Assembly: GCA_018334675.1 (NCBI GenBank)
Contig: JAGXLL010000008.1
Coordinates: 1 to 64,000, forward strand
Source of the DNA: Bacteroidales bacterium
GTDB taxonomy: Bacteria; Bacteroidota; Bacteroidia; Bacteroidales; UBA12077
Length of the DNA: 64,000 bases
Direction of reading: 5' to 3'
The notes under the pieces were generated by a model, which had not been told where the DNA came from, ran no database searches, and worked only from the letters and a program-made list of their open reading frames with translations. Position numbers and translations under genes: made by a program. Position 1 is the first letter of the stretch; each line of letters starts with the position of its first letter. Below are positions 8,295 to 63,467 of the stretch, piece by piece.

Positions 8295-8310
8295 AAAATT
8301 TTCAGCGAAA

Positions 8311-8345
8311 TTTTCAGCGCTTAGCGCAGCGCTAAGCGCTGAAAA
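8311..8345. repeat. AGCGCTTAGCGC palindrome family, copy P1 (perfect 17-bp arms, 1-nt centre)
   Basis: TTTTCAGCGCTTAGCGC-A-GCGCTAAGCGCTGAAAA. Confidence 0.95.
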
Positions 8346-8363
8346 TGTGCGAAAACGAACACT

Positions 8364-8402
8364 GAAAATGGGTTGCCCCCTGGATTGGGGCAGCCCATTT
8401 TC
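8364..8402 (+). terminator. Putative intrinsic terminator of the lipoprotein operon
   Basis: GAAAATGGGTTGCCCC-ctggatt-GGGGCAGCCCATTTTC. Confidence 0.75.
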
Positions 8403-8445
8403 TAATCACAACTATTTTAGTGCTTAGTTTTTTTTAACTTTTTTT

Positions 8446-8472
8446 TAGTGCTTAGCGCTGCGCTAAGCGCTA
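8446..8472. repeat. AGCGCTTAGCGC palindrome family, copy P2
   Basis: TAGTGCTTAGCGC-T-GCGCTAAGCGCTA, one arm mismatch. Confidence 0.9.
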
Positions 8473-8535
8473 GGTTAATCTAATTGCTGGGTTAATTCAA
8501 AGATATTTGTTAGATTTGCAAAAAATCGTTCAATC

Positions 8536-14222: not shown

Positions 14223-16697
14223 CTATAAAGGATCCACATCAAAATGAATCTGGAGGCTGCGGAAAGCCGGATCTTTTTTCAGATCGTCGGCCTTTTTCAG
14301 GATAATCTGCTTGGAGCGGGCCAAAGAACGCTCCTTTTCGATCTTCAGGATGACATGCTTGAGGTAGTAGTTTTGTATGCGTCCTACGATGGGATCCTGC
14401 GGACCCAGCACCCGGTAACCGAACACCTGCTTGAGCCTGTCAACCAGTGAGCGGGCTGCATCGTTCAACACATCGGTCTTCTTGTGCTTCATCAGCACCC
14501 GTATCATCTTGTAATAAGGCGGATACATGAACTCTTTGCGTTCCTGCAGCTGACTCCGGTACATCTCCTCATAATCGTTGTCGATCACCTGTTTGATGAT
14601 GGGGTGTGAAGCCTGGCTGGTTTGAATGATCACCTCCCCCCGTTTCTTCTTCCTGCCGGCGCGGCCACTCACCTGTGCCATCAGCTGATAACCCCGCTCA
14701 AAAGCACGAAAATCGGGAAAGTTCAGCATGTTATCTGCATTCAAAACACCAACCACACTCACATGATCGAAATCAAGTCCCTTCGTCACCATCTGGGTAC
14801 CTACCAGAATATCGATCTCCTGATCCTCGAAGGCATGTATGATCTTCTCGTAGGCATGGCGGGCCCGGGTTGAATCCAGATCCATCCTCCTGATGCGGGC
14901 ATCGGGAAAATAAATTTGTATCTCATCTTCCACTTTCTCCGTACCAAACCCGCGGGTGATGATGTTATGGCTGCCGCACGAGGGACAGGTATCAGGTATC
15001 CTCTGTGCATAGCCACAATAATGGCATACCAGGTTTTTTGACTTCCGGTGATAGGTCAGGCTCACATCGCAGTGTTTGCACTGGGGTATCCAACTGCAGT
15101 CGGCACATTCCATGTAAGGTGCAAAGCCGCGGCGGTTCTGAAACAGGATAACCTGCTCGTGGTTCTCGAGGGCTTTTTGCATATGCTCCAGCAGCAGGGG
15201 TGTGAAATGGCTGCTCATCTTCTTTCTGCGCCGGGCCTCCAGCACATCGCCAATCAGTATCTCGGGAAGCTGAATATCGAGGTAGCGGGTGAACAATTCC
15301 ACCAGCCCATACTTGCCCCTGCGGGCATTGTAGTAGCTTTCTATGGATGGAGTAGCCGTTCCCAGCAGGGTCCCGGCCCGGTGCATGCTGGCCAGTACAA
15401 TAGCCACATCGCGGGCATGATAACGGGGCGCCGGATCGAACTGTTTGTAGGTGTTCTCGTGTTCTTCATCGACAATCACCAATCCCAGGCGCGAAAAAGG
15501 AAGGAATACAGAAGAACGCACACCCAGGATCACCTGATAACGGTTCACATTGGAGGCATCCAGCAGCTGATTGTATATCTCCACCCGTTCACTGTCCGGA
15601 AATCTCGAATGGTAGACGCCTACCTGGTCGCCGAAGACGGCTTTCAAACGATGGATGATCTGGGAAGTCAGGGCGATCTCGGGTAGCAGATAGAGCACCT
15701 GGTAGCCCTTCTCCAGTTGCTCCCGTATCAGATGGATGTATAGTTCTGTCTTACCCGATGAAGTTACTCCGTGCAGCAGTACCACGCCCTTCTCCCGGAA
15801 CTGCTGTTGAACGGATTGAAAGGCTTGCTGCTGGGCGTCGGTAAGTCCCTTCGCCGCTTCACCTTCTCCTTCACCTTGCTGAAGCCGGCTTACCTCCTGC
15901 TCCTGCTCAAGGAGGATGCCTTTATCGATCAAAGATTTTAACACCGAGGAGCTCACCGATACCTGCCTGAGCAGCTGCTGCTTCTTGATCATCAGGTCCT
16001 GCCCATTGTTGCCGGACATCCGGATCATCTGCATCACCAGCTCCACCTGCCTGGGCGCATTTTTCAGCTTTTCAAAAACCCGATTCAACGCCTCTTCGTC
16101 CTGCGGAGAGAAATTCAATGAAACAAAAGAGGCTTTGCGGGGTTTATAGGCATCCCTCAGCCTCTCCTCCACCGACAAGGCACCCTTTTGCATCAGGGCA
16201 TGAACAATGGGCAAGACATCTTTGCGGCCGGTCTTCTCGGTGAGATCCTTCAGGCCGGTTACCTGCCTTTCTTTCACCACCTCCAGCAGAAGGGCCTCCT
16301 TCTCGGTCAGCGAAACCTGTTCGGGTTGAAAAGAAGGCCGGTACACCACCCGGGTCTCGCTCTCCAGCTTCAGTCCCGAGGGCATGGCTGCCTTGTATAC
16401 ATCGCCCATAGAACACATATAATAATCCGAGAGCCACTCCCACAACTTCAGTTGAAAAGCGTTGATCACAGGCTGGTCATCCAAAACCGTCTGAACAGGC
16501 TTGGTACGGTATCCGGTGGGTTGATCCCGGTGTACCCGGTATATGATGGCCGAATAGTACTTGCGGCGCCCGAACTGAACGATCACCCGTTTGCCGGTGA
16601 CCACACGATCCTGCTGTGTGGGTGGAACATGGTAGGTAAAAGCACCCGGCAGGGCCAGGGGCAACAAAACATCCACATATAGGTCGTTTCCTTTCAC
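14223..16697 (-). CDS. priA: Primosomal protein N' (PriA helicase), GTG start
   Basis: LLHGVTSSGKTELY Walker A, DEEH, GTATPS, zinc-binding cysteines CADCSWIPQCKHCD. Confidence 0.96.
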   Translation of the reverse strand: MKGNDLYVDVLLPLALPGAFTYHVPPTQQDRVVTGKRVIVQFGRRKYYSAIIYRVHRDQPTGYRTKPVQTVLDDQPVINAFQLKLWEWLSDYYMCSMGDVYKAAMPSGLKLESETRVVYRPSFQPEQVSLTEKEALLLEVVKERQVTGLKDLTEKTGRKDVLPIVHALMQKGALSVEERLRDAYKPRKASFVSLNFSPQDEEALNRVFEKLKNAPRQVELVMQMIRMSGNNGQDLMIKKQQLLRQVSVSSSVLKSLIDKGILLEQEQEVSRLQQGEGEGEAAKGLTDAQQQAFQSVQQQFREKGVVLLHGVTSSGKTELYIHLIREQLEKGYQVLYLLPEIALTSQIIHRLKAVFGDQVGVYHSRFPDSERVEIYNQLLDASNVNRYQVILGVRSSVFLPFSRLGLVIVDEEHENTYKQFDPAPRYHARDVAIVLASMHRAGTLLGTATPSIESYYNARRGKYGLVELFTRYLDIQLPEILIGDVLEARRRKKMSSHFTPLLLEHMQKALENHEQVILFQNRRGFAPYMECADCSWIPQCKHCDVSLTYHRKSKNLVCHYCGYAQRIPDTCPSCGSHNIITRGFGTEKVEDEIQIYFPDARIRRMDLDSTRARHAYEKIIHAFEDQEIDILVGTQMVTKGLDFDHVSVVGVLNADNMLNFPDFRAFERGYQLMAQVSGRAGRKKKRGEVIIQTSQASHPIIKQVIDNDYEEMYRSQLQERKEFMYPPYYKMIRVLMKHKKTDVLNDAARSLVDRLKQVFGYRVLGPQDPIVGRIQNYYLKHVILKIEKERSLARSKQIILKKADDLKKDPAFRSLQIHFDVDPL

Positions 16698-16798
16698 AAG
16701 ATTATTTTTATTATTGTTATGGCCTTGTGTAACTTACCATGACAAAATAATCATCTCCTGTTGTGATATTAATGATTATTTTGTCATGGACGTTTCAT
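16695..16798 (-). repeat. 5'-leader structured element, copy E1 (priA)
   Basis: ATGAAACGTCCATGACAAAATAATCAT...ATGATTATTTTGTCATGGTAAGTTACACAAGGCCATAACAATAATAAAAATAATCTTGTG; GTG is the priA start. Confidence 0.85.
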
Positions 16799-20024: not shown

Positions 20025-20086
20025 GTTCGTTTTCGAACATTTTCAGCGCTTAGCGCAGCGCTTGGCGCTGCGCTAAGCGCTGAAAA
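20025..20086. repeat. AGCGCTTAGCGC palindrome family, copy P3 with GTTCG mini-hairpin
   Basis: GTTCGTTTTCGAAC then perfect 22-bp arms TTTTCAGCGCTTAGCGCAGCGC-TTG-GCGCTGCGCTAAGCGCTGAAAA. Confidence 0.95.
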
Positions 20087-20100
20087 ACGCTGAAAAATTC

Positions 20101-28198: not shown

Positions 28199-29269
28199 TT
28201 ATACCACTTTTTTGGCAATATACTGGGAGCTCAGAATGGTAAGTGCACCCATATAATTGATCTTGAAGGCAAGCAGATCCCCAACCTTATAATTTGGCTT
28301 CTCCGTGCCCAGATCCACCACGATCATATCGGAACTGGCGCCGGTTATTTGGACCCCTTCATCGAGTGGCTCAATATTCTGAGGATCAATATCCAGCAGG
28401 CCAATATCCAGGATCGCCCGGTAGGAAGTCTTACCATAATTATCCTCATTGAATTCCTTGACTTCCCCTGCTACATTCTCACCGATCTCTCCGGTAGGCA
28501 CCACGGGTTTCTCCGTGAGCTCAATGATCTCAGCATTCAACTTGAAGATCTCCTGCTCCATCTCATCAATCTTCTCTCCGGTGAACAGGTTGTTGCCGAA
28601 AAACAGCGTCTCTCCTATACGGAAATGGCTGATCCCCTCCGGAAGCACATTCTTGTAGATCAGCTCCAGGGCAACGGACGAGCCGCCCGACACATAAGGA
28701 ATATTGCGCTTGAAGCGGGCTTCGATCAACTGCTCGTAAAGGCTTAGCTGAATGAGCTTATCATGACTGGGCATCACCCCATTCAGGCAGTTCAGGTTGG
28801 CGCCAATGCCCACCACTTCGATGTTGGGCAACCTGAAGATCCCGGCGTAGAAATCCATAAACTCCTCACCAAGCACGCCTTCCCGCAAGTCCCCCATTTC
28901 AATCATAATAATGATCTTGTGGGTTTTGTTCTGACGCCGGGCTTCCTCGGAGAGCAGCTGGATGGTGTAATATTCGGTATTGAAACTGATGTCGGCATAT
29001 TGAACCACGCTTTTGATGCTCCTCTTGGAGGGCGGCCGTATATAAGCCGTTTCAATGCTCTCATCAAGGCTTTTAACAGCTTTGAGGTTGTACATGCGCG
29101 AATCCAGTATATGATCAACGCCCATATCTATGAGTACTTTCAAAAAATCCTTGTTGCCGCATAGCACCTTGGAGACAACCCCCAGCCGGATATCATGGTC
29201 TCCCAGCATGCCCTTCAGGTACTCGTAATTATGATGTAACTTCTTTTTATCCAGTTCTACAAATGCCAT
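28199..29269 (-). CDS. Alanine/ornithine racemase-family PLP enzyme
   Basis: LGVVSKVLCGNKDFLKVL, EMGDLREGV, SGGSSVALELI, FRIGETLFFG. Confidence 0.85.
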   Translation of the reverse strand: MAFVELDKKKLHHNYEYLKGMLGDHDIRLGVVSKVLCGNKDFLKVLIDMGVDHILDSRMYNLKAVKSLDESIETAYIRPPSKRSIKSVVQYADISFNTEYYTIQLLSEEARRQNKTHKIIIMIEMGDLREGVLGEEFMDFYAGIFRLPNIEVVGIGANLNCLNGVMPSHDKLIQLSLYEQLIEARFKRNIPYVSGGSSVALELIYKNVLPEGISHFRIGETLFFGNNLFTGEKIDEMEQEIFKLNAEIIELTEKPVVPTGEIGENVAGEVKEFNEDNYGKTSYRAILDIGLLDIDPQNIEPLDEGVQITGASSDMIVVDLGTEKPNYKVGDLLAFKINYMGALTILSSQYIAKKVV

Positions 29270-29337
29270 AAATCTGTTTATTTTTTCATTTTCAATGGTC
29301 AGATGGAACTTACCCCGCTAAGGCGGGGACGTTTCAT
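29267..29337 (-). repeat. 5'-leader structured element, copy E2 (racemase)
   Basis: ATGAAACGTCCCCGCCTTAGCGGGGTAAGTTCCATCTGACCATTGAAAATGAAAAAATAAACAGATTTATG. Confidence 0.8.
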
Positions 29338-34026: not shown

Positions 34027-34065
34027 GTTCGTTATCGAACATTTTCAGCGCTTAGCGCAGCGCTG
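34027..34065. repeat. AGCGCTTAGCGC palindrome family, copy P4 (truncated) with GTTCG mini-hairpin
   Basis: GTTCGTTATCGAACATTTTCAGCGCTTAGCGCAGCGCTG. Confidence 0.85.
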
Positions 34066-34090
34066 GATATTCGCTGGATATTTCTCCCCA

Positions 34091-42674: not shown

Positions 42675-44207
42675 ATGGGAACCCTATACCAGGCTGCCCG
42701 GGAAAGGATCAGGAAGCTGCTGATGGAGGTCTATCCGGAAGAACACATTACCGGTGATTATCTGGAAAAAATTTACCAATTGATCGAAGAAAACCTGCAG
42801 GAGGTAACCTGCAGCCTGACCAAGTGGGATGAGGCCGACACGGTCTTGATCAGCTATGCCAACAGCATCATCAGTGACCGGCAGCCCCCCCTGCAAACCC
42901 TCCATGCTTTCCTGAAGCAACATCTGATCAACGAAATCCGCAGCGTGTATATCCTCCCCTTCTTCCCCCATAGCTCAGACGAGGGATTTTCCGGGATCGA
43001 CCATTACCAGGTTGATCCCAAACTGGGAAACTGGCAAGATATAGAGAAGATCGGGCAGGATTTTGACTTGATGGCCGACCTGGTCATCAACCATGTATCC
43101 ACACACAGTCAGTGGTTTCAAAACTCTCTGAAGGGCGAATCACCGGACAAAGACTATTACATTGAGATGCTGAAGGTTCTGTTCTTCTATATCAACCGGG
43201 GCATCCGCATCATCCGGCTGCCACAGGCACCACGCATCGTCAAGCTCTTCCGGGAGCTGGCCGAGCTGATCCATCCCGACTGCGTCATCCTGACCGAGAC
43301 CCACGTATCCGACGGCGAGAACCTTTCCTATTTCGGGGACAAAGGCAATGAGGCCCACATGATCCACCAGTTACCTCTTCCGCCTCTGATTCTGTATACC
43401 CTGCATACAGGCTCTTCCAAACACCTAAGCCAATGGGCCCGGAAGATACCGGAACCGGGAAACGAAGCCACCTTTTTCAACTTCACCGCCTCACACGACG
43501 GCATCAGGGTACGGCCGGCAGAAGGGCTGATCCCCCGGGAAGAAATGGATCAGATGGTAGAAAAGATGCAGGATTTTGGAGGCCACCTCAGCACGAAGAT
43601 CAATGCGGATGGCTCTGAGAGCCCCTATGAGATCAACATCACCTGGTTTGATGCCCTGAAAGGCACCCACCGCGGGAGCGATGATCTGCAAACCGAGCGT
43701 TTCCTCTGCTCGCAAACCATCATGATGAGCCTCCGGGGCATCCCCGGCTTCTACATCCATTCGCTCACGGCCACGGAGAACGATCAGGAAGGGGTGGAAC
43801 AAACAGGAAAAAACAGAAGCATCAACCGCAAAAAGTGGGACTGGCAAGAGCTGATGGAGAAGCTCAACGATCAGGGGGATCCAGCCCATCGCGTGTTCAG
43901 TGAAACCAAAAGGCTGATGGGCATCCGCACCAGCCAGCCTGCTTTTCATCCCGATAGCCCCCAGGAAATTCAGGACTTAGGTGAATCGTTCTTTGCCCTT
44001 AAAAGAAGCCATGAGACGGGCGAGGCCATCCGGAGCCTGTCGAACATCACCAACCGGCAGCAGGAATTCGACCTGACCCGGCTGGATAACTCCGGGGACC
44101 TGCACGATTTGATCAGCGGAAGAGACTTTGGGGCCGACGAAAAAACCACCCTGGAACCCTATCAGACGGTTTGGTTGAAATCAAACCAACGCTTAGCGCA
44201 GCGCTAA
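42675..44207 (+). CDS. GH13_18 (sucrose phosphorylase-like) glycosidase with internal in-frame deletions; probably inactive
   Basis: VYILPFFPHSSDEGFSGIDHYQVDP, DLVINHVSTHSQWF, VILTETHVSDGENLSYFGD, NFTASHDGIRVRPAEG; nucleophile block missing. Confidence 0.8.
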   Translation: MGTLYQAARERIRKLLMEVYPEEHITGDYLEKIYQLIEENLQEVTCSLTKWDEADTVLISYANSIISDRQPPLQTLHAFLKQHLINEIRSVYILPFFPHSSDEGFSGIDHYQVDPKLGNWQDIEKIGQDFDLMADLVINHVSTHSQWFQNSLKGESPDKDYYIEMLKVLFFYINRGIRIIRLPQAPRIVKLFRELAELIHPDCVILTETHVSDGENLSYFGDKGNEAHMIHQLPLPPLILYTLHTGSSKHLSQWARKIPEPGNEATFFNFTASHDGIRVRPAEGLIPREEMDQMVEKMQDFGGHLSTKINADGSESPYEINITWFDALKGTHRGSDDLQTERFLCSQTIMMSLRGIPGFYIHSLTATENDQEGVEQTGKNRSINRKKWDWQELMEKLNDQGDPAHRVFSETKRLMGIRTSQPAFHPDSPQEIQDLGESFFALKRSHETGEAIRSLSNITNRQQEFDLTRLDNSGDLHDLISGRDFGADEKTTLEPYQTVWLKSNQRLAQR

Positions 44208-44256
44208 GCGCTCAAAAGTCGCAAAAGAAAGCGCTAAGCGCTGCGCTTAGCGTTGG
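44186..44256. repeat. AGCGCTTAGCGC palindrome family, copy P5 (double palindrome forming one large hairpin)
   Basis: CCAACGCTTAGCGCAGCGCTAAGCGCT-17 nt-AGCGCTAAGCGCTGCGCTTAGCGTTGG, 25 of 27 arm positions pair; overlaps both stop codons. Confidence 0.95.
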
Positions 44257-45388: not shown

Positions 45389-48112
45389 TCAAATCTTTTC
45401 CACCTTACAAGCCGAATATTTATAGGGTGGTATTTTCGAAAAGGGATCCAGGTCGCTGCGGGTAAGCTTATTCACCTGTGCCTCGCTGTAATGGAACGGC
45501 ATGAACAGCTCCCCCTTCGACACTCCGTCGCTTTCGCGTATCTCCGTCTCCAGTTCCCCCCTTTTGTTGGAGATCTTCACCCGGTCACCATCTCTCAGGC
45601 CATTCTTTTTCAAATCGTCCGGGTTCATCAGCACATAGTCATCATTGGCAAAATCGTTGAGCGCCTTGCTTCGGCGCGACATGGTGGAGGTATGATACTG
45701 ATAGACTATCCGCCCGGTATTGAGCACGAAGGGGTATTCTTCAGAAGCCGGCTCACTTTGCGGTTTATAATCCACCGGGTTGAGTATGCCCAGGCCATGG
45801 GAGGTACTAAATTTCTCCAGGAACAGGGTGGGGGTACCAGGATGATCGGTGGTTGGGCAGGGCCACTGCAGACCCTCTTGCCCGATGCGCCCGTAGGTCA
45901 CGCCAGCCAGGATGGGGGTAGCTTCGCGTATCTCCTCGAAGATCTCCTTAGCCTTCCTGTACGTACCGATGTCATAGCCCATCTTCTCAGCGATGCGCAG
46001 GATGATCTTCCAGTCCTCCTCAGCCTGGCCGGGCTTCTCGACGGCCTTACGCACGCGGAGCACCCTTCGGTCGCTGTTGACAAACGTCCCGTCCTTTTCG
46101 GCATAGGAAGCCGCCGGCAGGATCACATCGGCAAAAGGCGTGGTCTCGGTATGGAAGATGTCCTGAACGACAAGAAAATCGAGGTTCTTCAGGGATTCTT
46201 CGGTGTGGTTCAGGTTGGGATCCGTCATCATCGGATTCTCACCCATGATGAACATGCCTTTGATCTGGCCATCGTAGGCGGCATTCATCAGCTCCACAGT
46301 GGTATAGCCCGGTTCAGAAGGCATCGACTCAAAGGGCACATTCCAAAGTTGGGCCAGCTTCCGGCGGTTCTCCTCATCGCCTACCGGGATGTATCCGGGA
46401 TAGTTGATGGGAGAGACACCGATGTCGGTTACCCCCTGCACATTGTTTTGTCCCCGCGGCGGGTCGATGCCGGCGCCCTCCTTGGCGATCTGGCCGGTGA
46501 CCAGCATCATGTTGATCAGTGAAAAAACCATGTTGGTGCCCACCTGCTGCTGGCTCAGTCCCATACCGGTGGCAATCATGGCGCGGGAAGCGCGGGCGTA
46601 AATCCTGGCCGCTTCCGTAAATTTGTCCCTGGGAACACCGGTAATGCGTTCGGTTTCTTCAGGGGTATAGGGTTCTACCAGCTCTTTCAGCTTCTCAAAC
46701 GATTCCATGCCGCCTTCCACTTTCTCCTCGATGAAGGTCGGATCGATCATATCCTCTTGGATGATCACGCGCACCATCCCGTTCAGAAGGGCTACATCGG
46801 TTCCCAGCCGGGGTTGCAACCAGATATCGGCATATTGAACCATCTTCGTCCACCGGGGATCGCATACGATGATCCTGTTTCCTTTATACTGACCGTTCTT
46901 GACAAAGGTGGCGGTTACCGGATGGGTCTCGATCATGTTGTTGCCGGTGATGAACAGGCAGTCGGCTTTAGCAAAATCCTCGATGGAGTTGCTGCCGGCG
47001 CCGCTGCCCAGCGATTTCAACATGGCTGTTACTGTGGAAGCATGGCACAGGCGTGTACAATAATCCAGGTTGTTGTTGCCAAAGACCACCCGGATGAATT
47101 TCTGGAAGATGTAATTGTCCTCGTTGGTGCATTTGGCCGAGCCATATCCGCCAAGGGCCTCACTCCCATGCTTCTCCTTGATCTCATTGAATTTGGTGGC
47201 GATCAGTTCGAGGGCTTCCTCCCATGTGGCCTCAACAAAGCTGCCGTTTTTCTTGATCAGCGGGGTCTTCAGGCGGTCGGGCGACTGGACATAGTCGTAT
47301 CCATAACGTCCCTTCACACAAAGCCTGCCATCGTTGGGCGCCACACCTTCCACCCCGTCGGAACGCACGATCTTTCCATCCTGCATATAAAGGAGGATCT
47401 GGCATCCCACCCCGCAATAGGGGCAGGTGGTACGTACCTGTTTCTCCACCTTATCCAGGTTGATCTCATCGCGGTGAAGTTTATCCACAAGGGCACCGGT
47501 GGGACAGAGCTGAACACATTCACCGCAGCCGTCACACTCCGAATCCCCCCATTTATCTATACCGGCCACGATATAGGAAGCCAGTCCGCGTTGACTGAAG
47601 GAAAGCACGTTCTTTCCCTGTACCTCATCGCAGGCTTTGATACACCGGAAGCATTTGATGCATTTGGTGCCGTCGTAGGAGAGGATGGGCGAGCTGTCGT
47701 CCACCGGATAGCGCATCTGCCTGTAGATGTTGGGATAACTCCGTTTGTCGCGTCGGTCCAGGTTATAATGCTGCACCCAATACAAAAACTCATCGTGATA
47801 AGTATTATCATGATGGTCGTTGTGCTCGGCCAACAGGTATTCCAGGGTCCGCCGGCGGGCCGATTCGATCTCCTCATCAAATGCCGTCACTTCCATGCCA
47901 TTCTCTACCGCCACGGTGCAGGACATGACCAGGCCGCTCTGGCCCTTGACCTTAGTCATACACATACGGCAGGCTCCTGTGGGCGACAGTTTCCGGTGAT
48001 AACACAGGTAGGGTATCTGTATACCATTGTCCAGGGCCACCTGCAGGAGGTTTTCCCCTTCACGCGCCTGAAATTTCTTTCCATCTATGGTGAGGTTAAC
48101 GAGCTTATTCAT
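45389..48112 (-). CDS. fdhA: Formate dehydrogenase alpha subunit (Mo/W-bis-MGD, Fe-S; Cys at active site)
   Basis: N-terminal 2Fe-2S and 4Fe-4S domains; CPYCGVGCQI; LDYCTRLCHASTV. Confidence 0.9.
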   Translation of the reverse strand: MNKLVNLTIDGKKFQAREGENLLQVALDNGIQIPYLCYHRKLSPTGACRMCMTKVKGQSGLVMSCTVAVENGMEVTAFDEEIESARRRTLEYLLAEHNDHHDNTYHDEFLYWVQHYNLDRRDKRSYPNIYRQMRYPVDDSSPILSYDGTKCIKCFRCIKACDEVQGKNVLSFSQRGLASYIVAGIDKWGDSECDGCGECVQLCPTGALVDKLHRDEINLDKVEKQVRTTCPYCGVGCQILLYMQDGKIVRSDGVEGVAPNDGRLCVKGRYGYDYVQSPDRLKTPLIKKNGSFVEATWEEALELIATKFNEIKEKHGSEALGGYGSAKCTNEDNYIFQKFIRVVFGNNNLDYCTRLCHASTVTAMLKSLGSGAGSNSIEDFAKADCLFITGNNMIETHPVTATFVKNGQYKGNRIIVCDPRWTKMVQYADIWLQPRLGTDVALLNGMVRVIIQEDMIDPTFIEEKVEGGMESFEKLKELVEPYTPEETERITGVPRDKFTEAARIYARASRAMIATGMGLSQQQVGTNMVFSLINMMLVTGQIAKEGAGIDPPRGQNNVQGVTDIGVSPINYPGYIPVGDEENRRKLAQLWNVPFESMPSEPGYTTVELMNAAYDGQIKGMFIMGENPMMTDPNLNHTEESLKNLDFLVVQDIFHTETTPFADVILPAASYAEKDGTFVNSDRRVLRVRKAVEKPGQAEEDWKIILRIAEKMGYDIGTYRKAKEIFEEIREATPILAGVTYGRIGQEGLQWPCPTTDHPGTPTLFLEKFSTSHGLGILNPVDYKPQSEPASEEYPFVLNTGRIVYQYHTSTMSRRSKALNDFANDDYVLMNPDDLKKNGLRDGDRVKISNKRGELETEIRESDGVSKGELFMPFHYSEAQVNKLTRSDLDPFSKIPPYKYSACKVEKI

Positions 48113-48200
48113 ATGATTATCTTTTTATTTATTATGGTCATATGTAACCCCCATGCATAAACATGTCCTTGTTGTGTAGGTTCCTGGATGGGGGTTTCAT
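48110..48200 (-). repeat. 5'-leader structured element, copy E3a (fdhA-proximal)
   Basis: ATGAAACCCCCATCC...CATGGGGGTTACATATGACCATAATAAATAAAAAGATAATCATATG; last ATG is the fdhA start. Confidence 0.85.
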
Positions 48201-48290
48201 GTGTTTATTTTTTATCTAATTAATTGGTCACATGGAACCCCCATACTTGCTCATGTTCTTGTTGTGAAGGTTGCTGGATGGGGGTTTCAT
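48198..48290 (-). repeat. 5'-leader structured element, copy E3b (tandem, distal)
   Basis: ATGAAACCCCCATCC...TATGGGGGTTCCATGTGACCAATTAATTAGATAAAAAATAAACACATG; last ATG is the first ATG of E3a. Confidence 0.85.
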
Positions 48291-56808: not shown

Positions 56809-56957
56809 AAAAAAGAATTTAACAGATCATCCTATACACACAAATGTAAGTTTTATTTTTAAAACACAGGGGCGTGTATTTGTCCTTAATTTTAATTTCT
56901 CTATATTTGAACCGTATAAATGGTTGCAGCAGGCATCAATATTAAAAATACGACTAC

Positions 56958-57060
56958 ATGAAACGTCCATGCCAAAATAATCATTAATATCACAAATGAG
57001 ATGATTATTTTGGCATGGTAAGTTCCATATGACCATAATAAATAATAAGATAATCATATG
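56958..57060 (+). repeat. 5'-leader structured element, copy E4 (purQ)
   Basis: ATGAAACGTCCATGCCAAAATAATCAT...ATGATTATTTTGGCATGGTAAGTTCCATATGACCATAATAAATAATAAGATAATCATATG; last ATG is the purQ start. Confidence 0.88.
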
Positions 57061-57759
57061 AAATTTGGAATTGTTGTTTTTCCGGGCTCAAATTGCGATC
57101 ACGATACTTTCTACGTTCTTGGCAACATTCTGAATCAGGAAGTGGTAGAATTATGGCACAAGGAACACGACCTGAAAGGGGTTGACGCGGTTATCCTTCC
57201 GGGAGGTTTCTCTTATGGCGACTACCTCAGATCGGGCGCTATAGCCCGTTATTCGCCTATCATGGAAGAAGTGATTGCCTTTGCCAACCGGGGCGGCTTT
57301 GTTTTTGGCATCTGCAACGGATTTCAGGTGCTCTGTGAAGCAGGTCTTTTGCCTGGCGCTTTGCTGCACAATGACAATCAGCGGTTCATTTGTAAAAACA
57401 TACACATCCTGCCCGACAACAACGGAAATGTACTCACCCGTGACCTGGACAAGCCGCGGCCCATCAAGGTCCCCATCGCCCATGGCGAAGGAAGATACTA
57501 CGCCAAAAAGAGCACCCTGCAGAAGATGAGGATGCAGGGTCAGATCCTCTTCCGCTACTGCAACCAATACGGCCAGATCACCACCGATGCCAACCCGAAT
57601 GGATCGCTGGAGAACATAGCCGGGGTATGCAACGAGAACAAAAATGTTTTCGGTATGATGCCCCATCCCGAAAGGGCAGGTGATGAGATGCTGGGTAACA
57701 CGGAAGGCAAAAACATCTTCGAATCCATCATCAACAACCTGGTGCCCCGCCCGGCCTAG
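57058..57759 (+). CDS. purQ: Phosphoribosylformylglycinamidine synthase subunit PurQ
   Basis: VVFPGSNCDHD, LPGGFSYGDYLRSGAIA, GICNGFQVLCEAGLLPGALL. Confidence 0.95.
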   Translation: MKFGIVVFPGSNCDHDTFYVLGNILNQEVVELWHKEHDLKGVDAVILPGGFSYGDYLRSGAIARYSPIMEEVIAFANRGGFVFGICNGFQVLCEAGLLPGALLHNDNQRFICKNIHILPDNNGNVLTRDLDKPRPIKVPIAHGEGRYYAKKSTLQKMRMQGQILFRYCNQYGQITTDANPNGSLENIAGVCNENKNVFGMMPHPERAGDEMLGNTEGKNIFESIINNLVPRPA

Positions 57760-63379: not shown

Positions 63380-63392
63380 AAATCCAGTAAAA

Positions 63393-63467
63393 ATCCAGCG
63401 CTTAGCGCAGCGCTAAGCGTTGGATCTGTTCGTTTCCGGACATTTTTCAGCGCTGCGCTAAGCGCTG
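63393..63467. repeat. AGCGCTTAGCGC palindrome family, copies P6a/P6b with GTTCG mini-hairpin between
   Basis: ATCCAGCGCTTAGCGC-A-GCGCTAAGCGTTGGAT, TGTTCGTTTCCGGACA, CAGCGCTGCGCTAAGCGCTG. Confidence 0.93.

Follow-up and report, generated by a model that had tools for sequence, protein, structure and literature searches.

A probable family of mobile hairpins that inserts at gene starts in Bacteroidia

Five copies of one element lie in the window (the whole 64-kb stretch of DNA that was analyzed), at priA, purQ, a formate dehydrogenase gene (fdhA, two copies) and a racemase gene. They very probably belong to a family of non-autonomous mobile hairpins of about 95 nt that occurs in the Bacteroidia and inserts at gene starts, with a mobilizing enzyme that is not identified. 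The comparisons below establish the anatomy of the element, its covariation, its insertion junctions, its recent spread, its preference for start codons and its class-wide range. In the scheme we propose, the element would insert immediately 3' of an NTGAA pentamer, most commonly a gene's start codon with the two bases after it. It would terminate in an NTGAA of its own after an A-rich stretch, enabling the gene to regain an in-frame start, with the original start codon remaining upstream and usually opening a short ORF. The predicted unit has a variable stem 1, which includes conserved outer AA[CT]/[GA]TT pairs, and then a stem 2 of six pairs including the new start codon. By inference, an enzyme acting in trans would process both stems, probably as ssDNA, and translation may also be tuned by the hairpin that stem 2 places on the start codon.

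Copies in the window and insertion junctions

The copy at priA (16693-16798, minus strand) runs from a host-derived ATGAA at 16798-16794 to an element-borne GTGAA at 16697-16693. The PriA ORF (14223-16697; PriA by NCBIfam) is predicted to start with the GTG at 16697. The arms of stem 1 (16737-16789, minus strand) lie at 16789-16772 and 16754-16737 and form 18 bp. In stem 2 (16695-16729, minus strand), CACAAG at 16729-16724 pairs with CTTGTG at 16700-16695, with the GTG start inside. On the plus strand, the purQ copy occupies 56958-57062 at the PurQ ORF (57058-57759; PurQ by NCBIfam), a position where a same-genus species has an empty site. Its stem 1 (56967-57018, arms 56967-56984 and 57001-57018) has a C-G pair where priA has A-T, and its stem 2 (57026-57060) pairs CATATGA at 57026-57032 with TCATATG at 57054-57060 around the ATG start (57058). 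Located 5' of this element on the same strand is TATATTTG (56902-56909), a candidate -7 box of what we take to be the Bacteroidetes-type promoter consensus; it is also present in the same-genus species.

The formate dehydrogenase gene (ORF 45389-48112) has a proximal copy at 48108-48200, for which a sister species has the empty site, and a distal tandem copy at 48196-48290, both on the minus strand; the 3' ATGAA of the distal unit is the 5' ATGAA of the proximal one. The fifth copy, at an ornithine-racemase-like gene (ORF 28199-29269), is shortened and diverged (29269-29337, minus strand). Its stem 1 is replaced by CCCCGC/GCGGGG and the gene start is 4 nt beyond the usual position. In four of the five copies a start codon lies within the 3' arm of stem 2. 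This codon is the gene's own for purQ, proximal fdhA and priA (GTG), and that of the next unit for distal fdhA. The racemase stem 1, CCCCGC-CTTA-GCGGGG, resembles a separate GC-rich palindrome, CCCCGCTAAGCGGGG, found as a tandem array in the same-genus genome G003, and judging from its sequence this copy is possibly a hybrid of two repeat families. A further repeat family in the window, made up of palindromes around CAGCGCTTAGCGCAGCGCTAAGCGCTG, has five or more separate sites (8308-8482, 20037-20092, 34039-34082, 44180-44223 and 63389-63466).

Compared with orthologues lacking the element, the filled sites read host sequence ending in NTGAA, element ending in NTGAA, gene. At an MNHE-family gene the host genome (G000) has TGTAAT followed by ATGAA, the element and ACGTTATC (upstream context ACCGGAATGTAAT); the empty site in G003 has TGTAAT followed by ATGAAACGACATC (upstream context ACCGGCATGTAAT). 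At fdhA the first ATG lies 11 nt from the upstream stop in the host and in the sister species alike, and the first ATG of the array is therefore the ancestral start. The element is missing from the same-genus relative at the priA, C28 and C65 sites, and purQ is filled in the host and empty in G003. The reverse also occurs, with G003 carrying a copy at rpe where G002 has none, and G002 carrying one at cysK where G000 and G001 have none. The purQ leader of G002 is without this element and has other repeat-like sequence, which makes it a possible hot spot for insertion. At C65 the element apparently lies within the ancestral reading frame, a few codons in; what is targeted is thus an NTGAA near a start and not the initiator codon itself.

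The NTG at the 5' junction varies independently of stem 2. Because only the 3' NTG covaries with stem 2, we assign the 3' NTGAA to the element and the 5' NTGAA to the host. As read from these junctions, the original start codon is left upstream and a new in-frame start comes with the element. The displaced host start opens an ORF of two to four codons in 30 of 57 diverse copies versus about 10 in shuffles, without correction for relatedness. These ORFs encode MK, MKRP, MKHP or MKCP before a stop and may limit interference or favor re-initiation.

Spread of the family and the search for a mobilizing enzyme

A covariance model built from 17 copies was used to search the host genome and found about 80 copies; model searches of three congeners gave 58-92. 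Several places with unrelated flanks carry units identical over 91 bases. Arrays of two or three units have an NTGAA common to the units at each joint. At the loci compared, sister species differ in their copies, the same gene being filled in one and empty in another. Recent spread is evident from sequence comparison; direct excision or transposition was not seen. With a broader model, the family was detected in 63 of 396 Bacteroidia genomes, representing 35 of 200 genera; this search counted no more than 10 copies per genome. The class-wide alignment has as its constants a left ATGAAA[CT], a middle [GA]TT[CA]CATNNG[AG], an A-rich stretch and a right NNNATGAA, while most of stem 1 varies in sequence.

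A semi-conserved, unpaired-looking CACA-N(4-7)-ATGATTAT recurs inside stem 1 in distant subtypes of the 57-copy alignment, a pattern that suggests a protein-binding or structured core. The exact pattern of the host B/D subtype matched only two named genomes, both of uncultured Bacteroidetes (SRR6193124). A longer variant whose 3' tail differs, GGTTCCTCAAAACTCAAATGAA and then a shared GCAGTACTA.TTAATTC stretch, is identical at three sites in the host genome (C47:1941, C52:39746 and C139:62230), and its 3' end does not coincide with the start of a gene. Carriage on viruses or plasmids was dropped as an explanation after empty searches of viral contigs (two subtype-specific patterns), a phage collection (one copy as query) and a plasmid collection (two copies as queries).

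It is possible, though we consider it rather unlikely, that the family is a derivative of the IS200/IS605/REP group, with ssDNA hairpins processed in trans by a Y1 (HUH) transposase, insertion 3' of NTGAA and a right end with the same pentamer. The element's pair of hairpins, its insertion on the 3' side of a short target and its right end resembling that target, with nothing else duplicated, fit the scheme of IS200/IS605 ends (PMC6006769). It also meets the insertion criterion for IS200/IS605 miniature elements, having NTGAA at both junctions with the 3' one its own. As in IS200/IS605 ends and the miniature elements derived from them, there is no ordinary target duplication, a hairpin lies near each end and the right end repeats target-like bases; the differences are the pentamer NTGAA, the long left hairpin domain and a transposase that was not found. 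Y1 genes are present in 16 of 17 high-copy distant genomes. However, several of 20 element-free genomes have them as well, and a search for Y1/RAYT transposases (PF01797) detected none in four carrier genomes (G000, G002, G003 and G236), two of which are at least 99% complete, although they are present in many other carriers. Searches beside the fetched Y1 loci with models R1 and R2 gave no confident element match. Flanking Y1/RAYT genes were thus rejected as the source, the element not lying beside the examined Y1 loci and no Y1 gene having been detected in four carriers. The best lead toward a mobilizer is RAYT subclass 2.6, which in Bacteroidetes is flanked by "atypical secondary structures" (PMC6006769).

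The REP/RAYT system (TnpAREP; PMC6006769) likewise consists of short non-coding hairpins in many dispersed copies, clustered or tandem, and restricted to some genomes. Unlike REP, the element is inserted at start codons, carries a start codon, and is found in several carriers without a detected Y1. The hairpin foot in the 57-copy alignment is NTGAAA[CT]-NN, and the GT[AG]G foot of REP/RAYT is missing. CGTC-tagged palindromic repeats, among them the Rickettsia RPE families, are also reported from Bacteroidetes and have no dedicated transposase (PMC3733652). One subtype here opens with ACGTCC at the hairpin foot, but CGTC occurs only in the priA/purQ-like subtype, the others having GA, AT, CC, CT or AG, so an unpaired CGTC does not define the family. 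The two-hairpin architecture and the length of about 95 nt are further differences, and the term "start codon" is absent from the text of that paper. TAACTGA repeats of Beggiatoaceae, Cyanobacteria and Bacteroidetes (PMC4679880) also lie near start codons of functionally unrelated genes and spread without a known mechanism, but they are heptamer direct repeats, whereas the element here is structured and contains the start codon. Integron attC-type recombination, considered for the AAC/GTT that flank stem 1, was rejected; the fdhA junction is inferred to put the exchange within NTGAA and not at AA^C. No description of such an element was found in the open-access literature (subscription papers were not covered).

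Gene starts as targets

To count arrays at gene starts, we used starts from ORF predictions and required 60 aa or more unless the ORF ran open to the contig end. In the host, such an ORF begins exactly at the 3' NTGAA in 38 of 64 arrays; the other 26 (about 40%) are not exactly at the start of a long ORF. A rough count for the host places 38% of non-coding ATGAA and GTGAA sites at starts. The excess at starts over non-coding sites (59% versus 38%; P = 0.0004) is modest, though significant. As 38% of the non-coding sites are already at starts, loss of insertions inside genes explains part of the association. In a closed distant genome, 19 of 20 copies are exactly on gene starts (P ~1e-6 versus that genome's own non-coding ATGAA sites, again a rough background). 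The bias reflects either a preference of the insertion machinery for start regions or the removal of copies inserted elsewhere. The 5' arm of stem 2 does not appear to act as a guide choosing the target: no association was found with bases -1 and -2 (17 of 49 versus 17.8 expected and 19 of 49 versus 15.9), and this candidate was rejected. The targets are unrelated and have no common pathway, coding for PurQ, PriA, formate dehydrogenase, CinA, a polyprenyl synthetase and others.

We think it unlikely that the element is instead a cis-regulatory RNA (a riboswitch, an attenuator with a leader peptide or a protein-binding leader) that hides the start codon, spread by ordinary duplication and was kept for regulation. 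The start codon within stem 2 with its compensatory arms, the excess of very short ORFs opened by the host start, the start-codon excess in the closed genome and the candidate promoter retained 5' of purQ would all suit such a leader. The lack of a shared pathway among the targets is not what is expected of a riboswitch or attenuator, and the element is not retained at orthologous genes of sister species. Nor are the roughly 40% of host arrays away from gene starts expected of it. Rfam offered no match either: with Rfam 15 at the gathering score the window gives only a tRNA, four copies searched at E up to 1 gave sub-threshold chance matches only, and 20 distant loci had none. The first-pass annotation had framed the element as a leader. 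The structure it described holds, but the copies do not make up a regulatory leader conserved in front of a set of genes; they are those of an interspersed mobile family at start codons.

Pairing in the two stems

The arms first proposed for stem 1 are present letter for letter, CCATGACAAAATAATCAT/ATGATTATTTTGTCATGG at priA and CCATGCCAAAATAATCAT/ATGATTATTTTGGCATGG at purQ, and the A-T to C-G swap claimed between them is real and is one of several double changes in that stem. Within the priA/purQ subtype, whose stem 1 has 18 bp, position 6 changes from A-T to C-G in 2 of 15, position 7 from C-G to G-C in 4 of 15, and there are also swaps at position 8. The stem 2 arms were confirmed as well: CACAAG/CTTGTG at priA, CATATGA/TCATATG at purQ and proximal fdhA, CATGTG/CACATG at distal fdhA and ATCTG/CAGAT at the racemase gene. 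All window copies fold better than their shuffles do on average, strongly so for purQ (z = -6.2) and priA (z = -5.1) and with z = -2.2 to -2.6 for the others.

In a structure-free MAFFT alignment of 17 copies, 98.6% of cells pair, with nine double-change cells versus 1.2 in shuffles (0 of 500 reach 9). Shifting the partner by one to three columns lowers pairing to 19-42%. Among 60 distinct copies from the same genome, pairing is 96.6% with 76 double changes versus 18 shuffled. The 57 diverse copies from across the class keep pairing in 97.8% of the cells tested and show 99 double changes versus 25 shuffled (0 of 500). The latter two alignments were fitted to the model and lean towards its structure, and relatedness is uncorrected, so these numbers are descriptive. 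A direct count of stem 2 versions involves no fitting: CATACG/CGTATG occurs 31 times, CACAAG/CTTGTG 19, CATATG/CATATG 17, CATAAG/CTTATG 10, CATGTG/CACATG 5 and CATCTG/CAGATG 2, plus rarer ones. At least six versions are fully complementary, and a GTG start goes with a CAC 5' arm and an ATG start with a CAT 5' arm. The earlier inference, that pairing kept while the sequence changes means selection on structure, is supported with many more copies aligned; an absence of covariation, which would have refuted it, was seen in none of the three alignments. Palindrome-templated (quasipalindrome) mutation could produce correlated stem 1 changes without selection, and the priA/purQ subtype does have such changes in its stem 1, an almost perfect inverted repeat of 18 bp, but this is an improbable source of the paired changes given a stem 2 fixed at 6 bp with a loop of 20-25 nt, the same pair positions retained over many families and stem 1 sequences replaced wholesale with pairing retained.

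The pairing may serve the mobility of ssDNA, the mRNA or both. Too few G-U and A-C mismatches occur in the stems to separate RNA from DNA selection, and folding energies of the top and bottom strands are confounded by loop composition. Since the copies are those of a mobile family at start codons, the element may be under selection at least partly as a DNA hairpin for mobility and not as mRNA. Stem 2, which encloses the start codon, folds only weakly (the 3' domain averages about -4.6 kcal/mol), making some translation gating plausible in the absence of experimental data. More tentatively, and short of an even bet, the family may be a previously undescribed Bacteroidia-wide mobile class, targeted to start sites by non-Y1 machinery, that overwrites essential-gene starts with a hairpin-gated start and combines mobility and translational control in the same paired structure. 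A sequence model is now available for seeking the mobilizing enzyme and for testing hairpin gating of translation.

Small palindromic repeats are usually seen as extragenic debris. This family enters the gene at the position where insertion should damage it most, and the protein remains intact by means of the element's own start codon. It would mean that many genes of Bacteroidia, some of them essential, have had their translation initiation regions replaced by a selfish element, with consequences for start-site annotation, expression engineering and the evolution of regulation in Bacteroidia.
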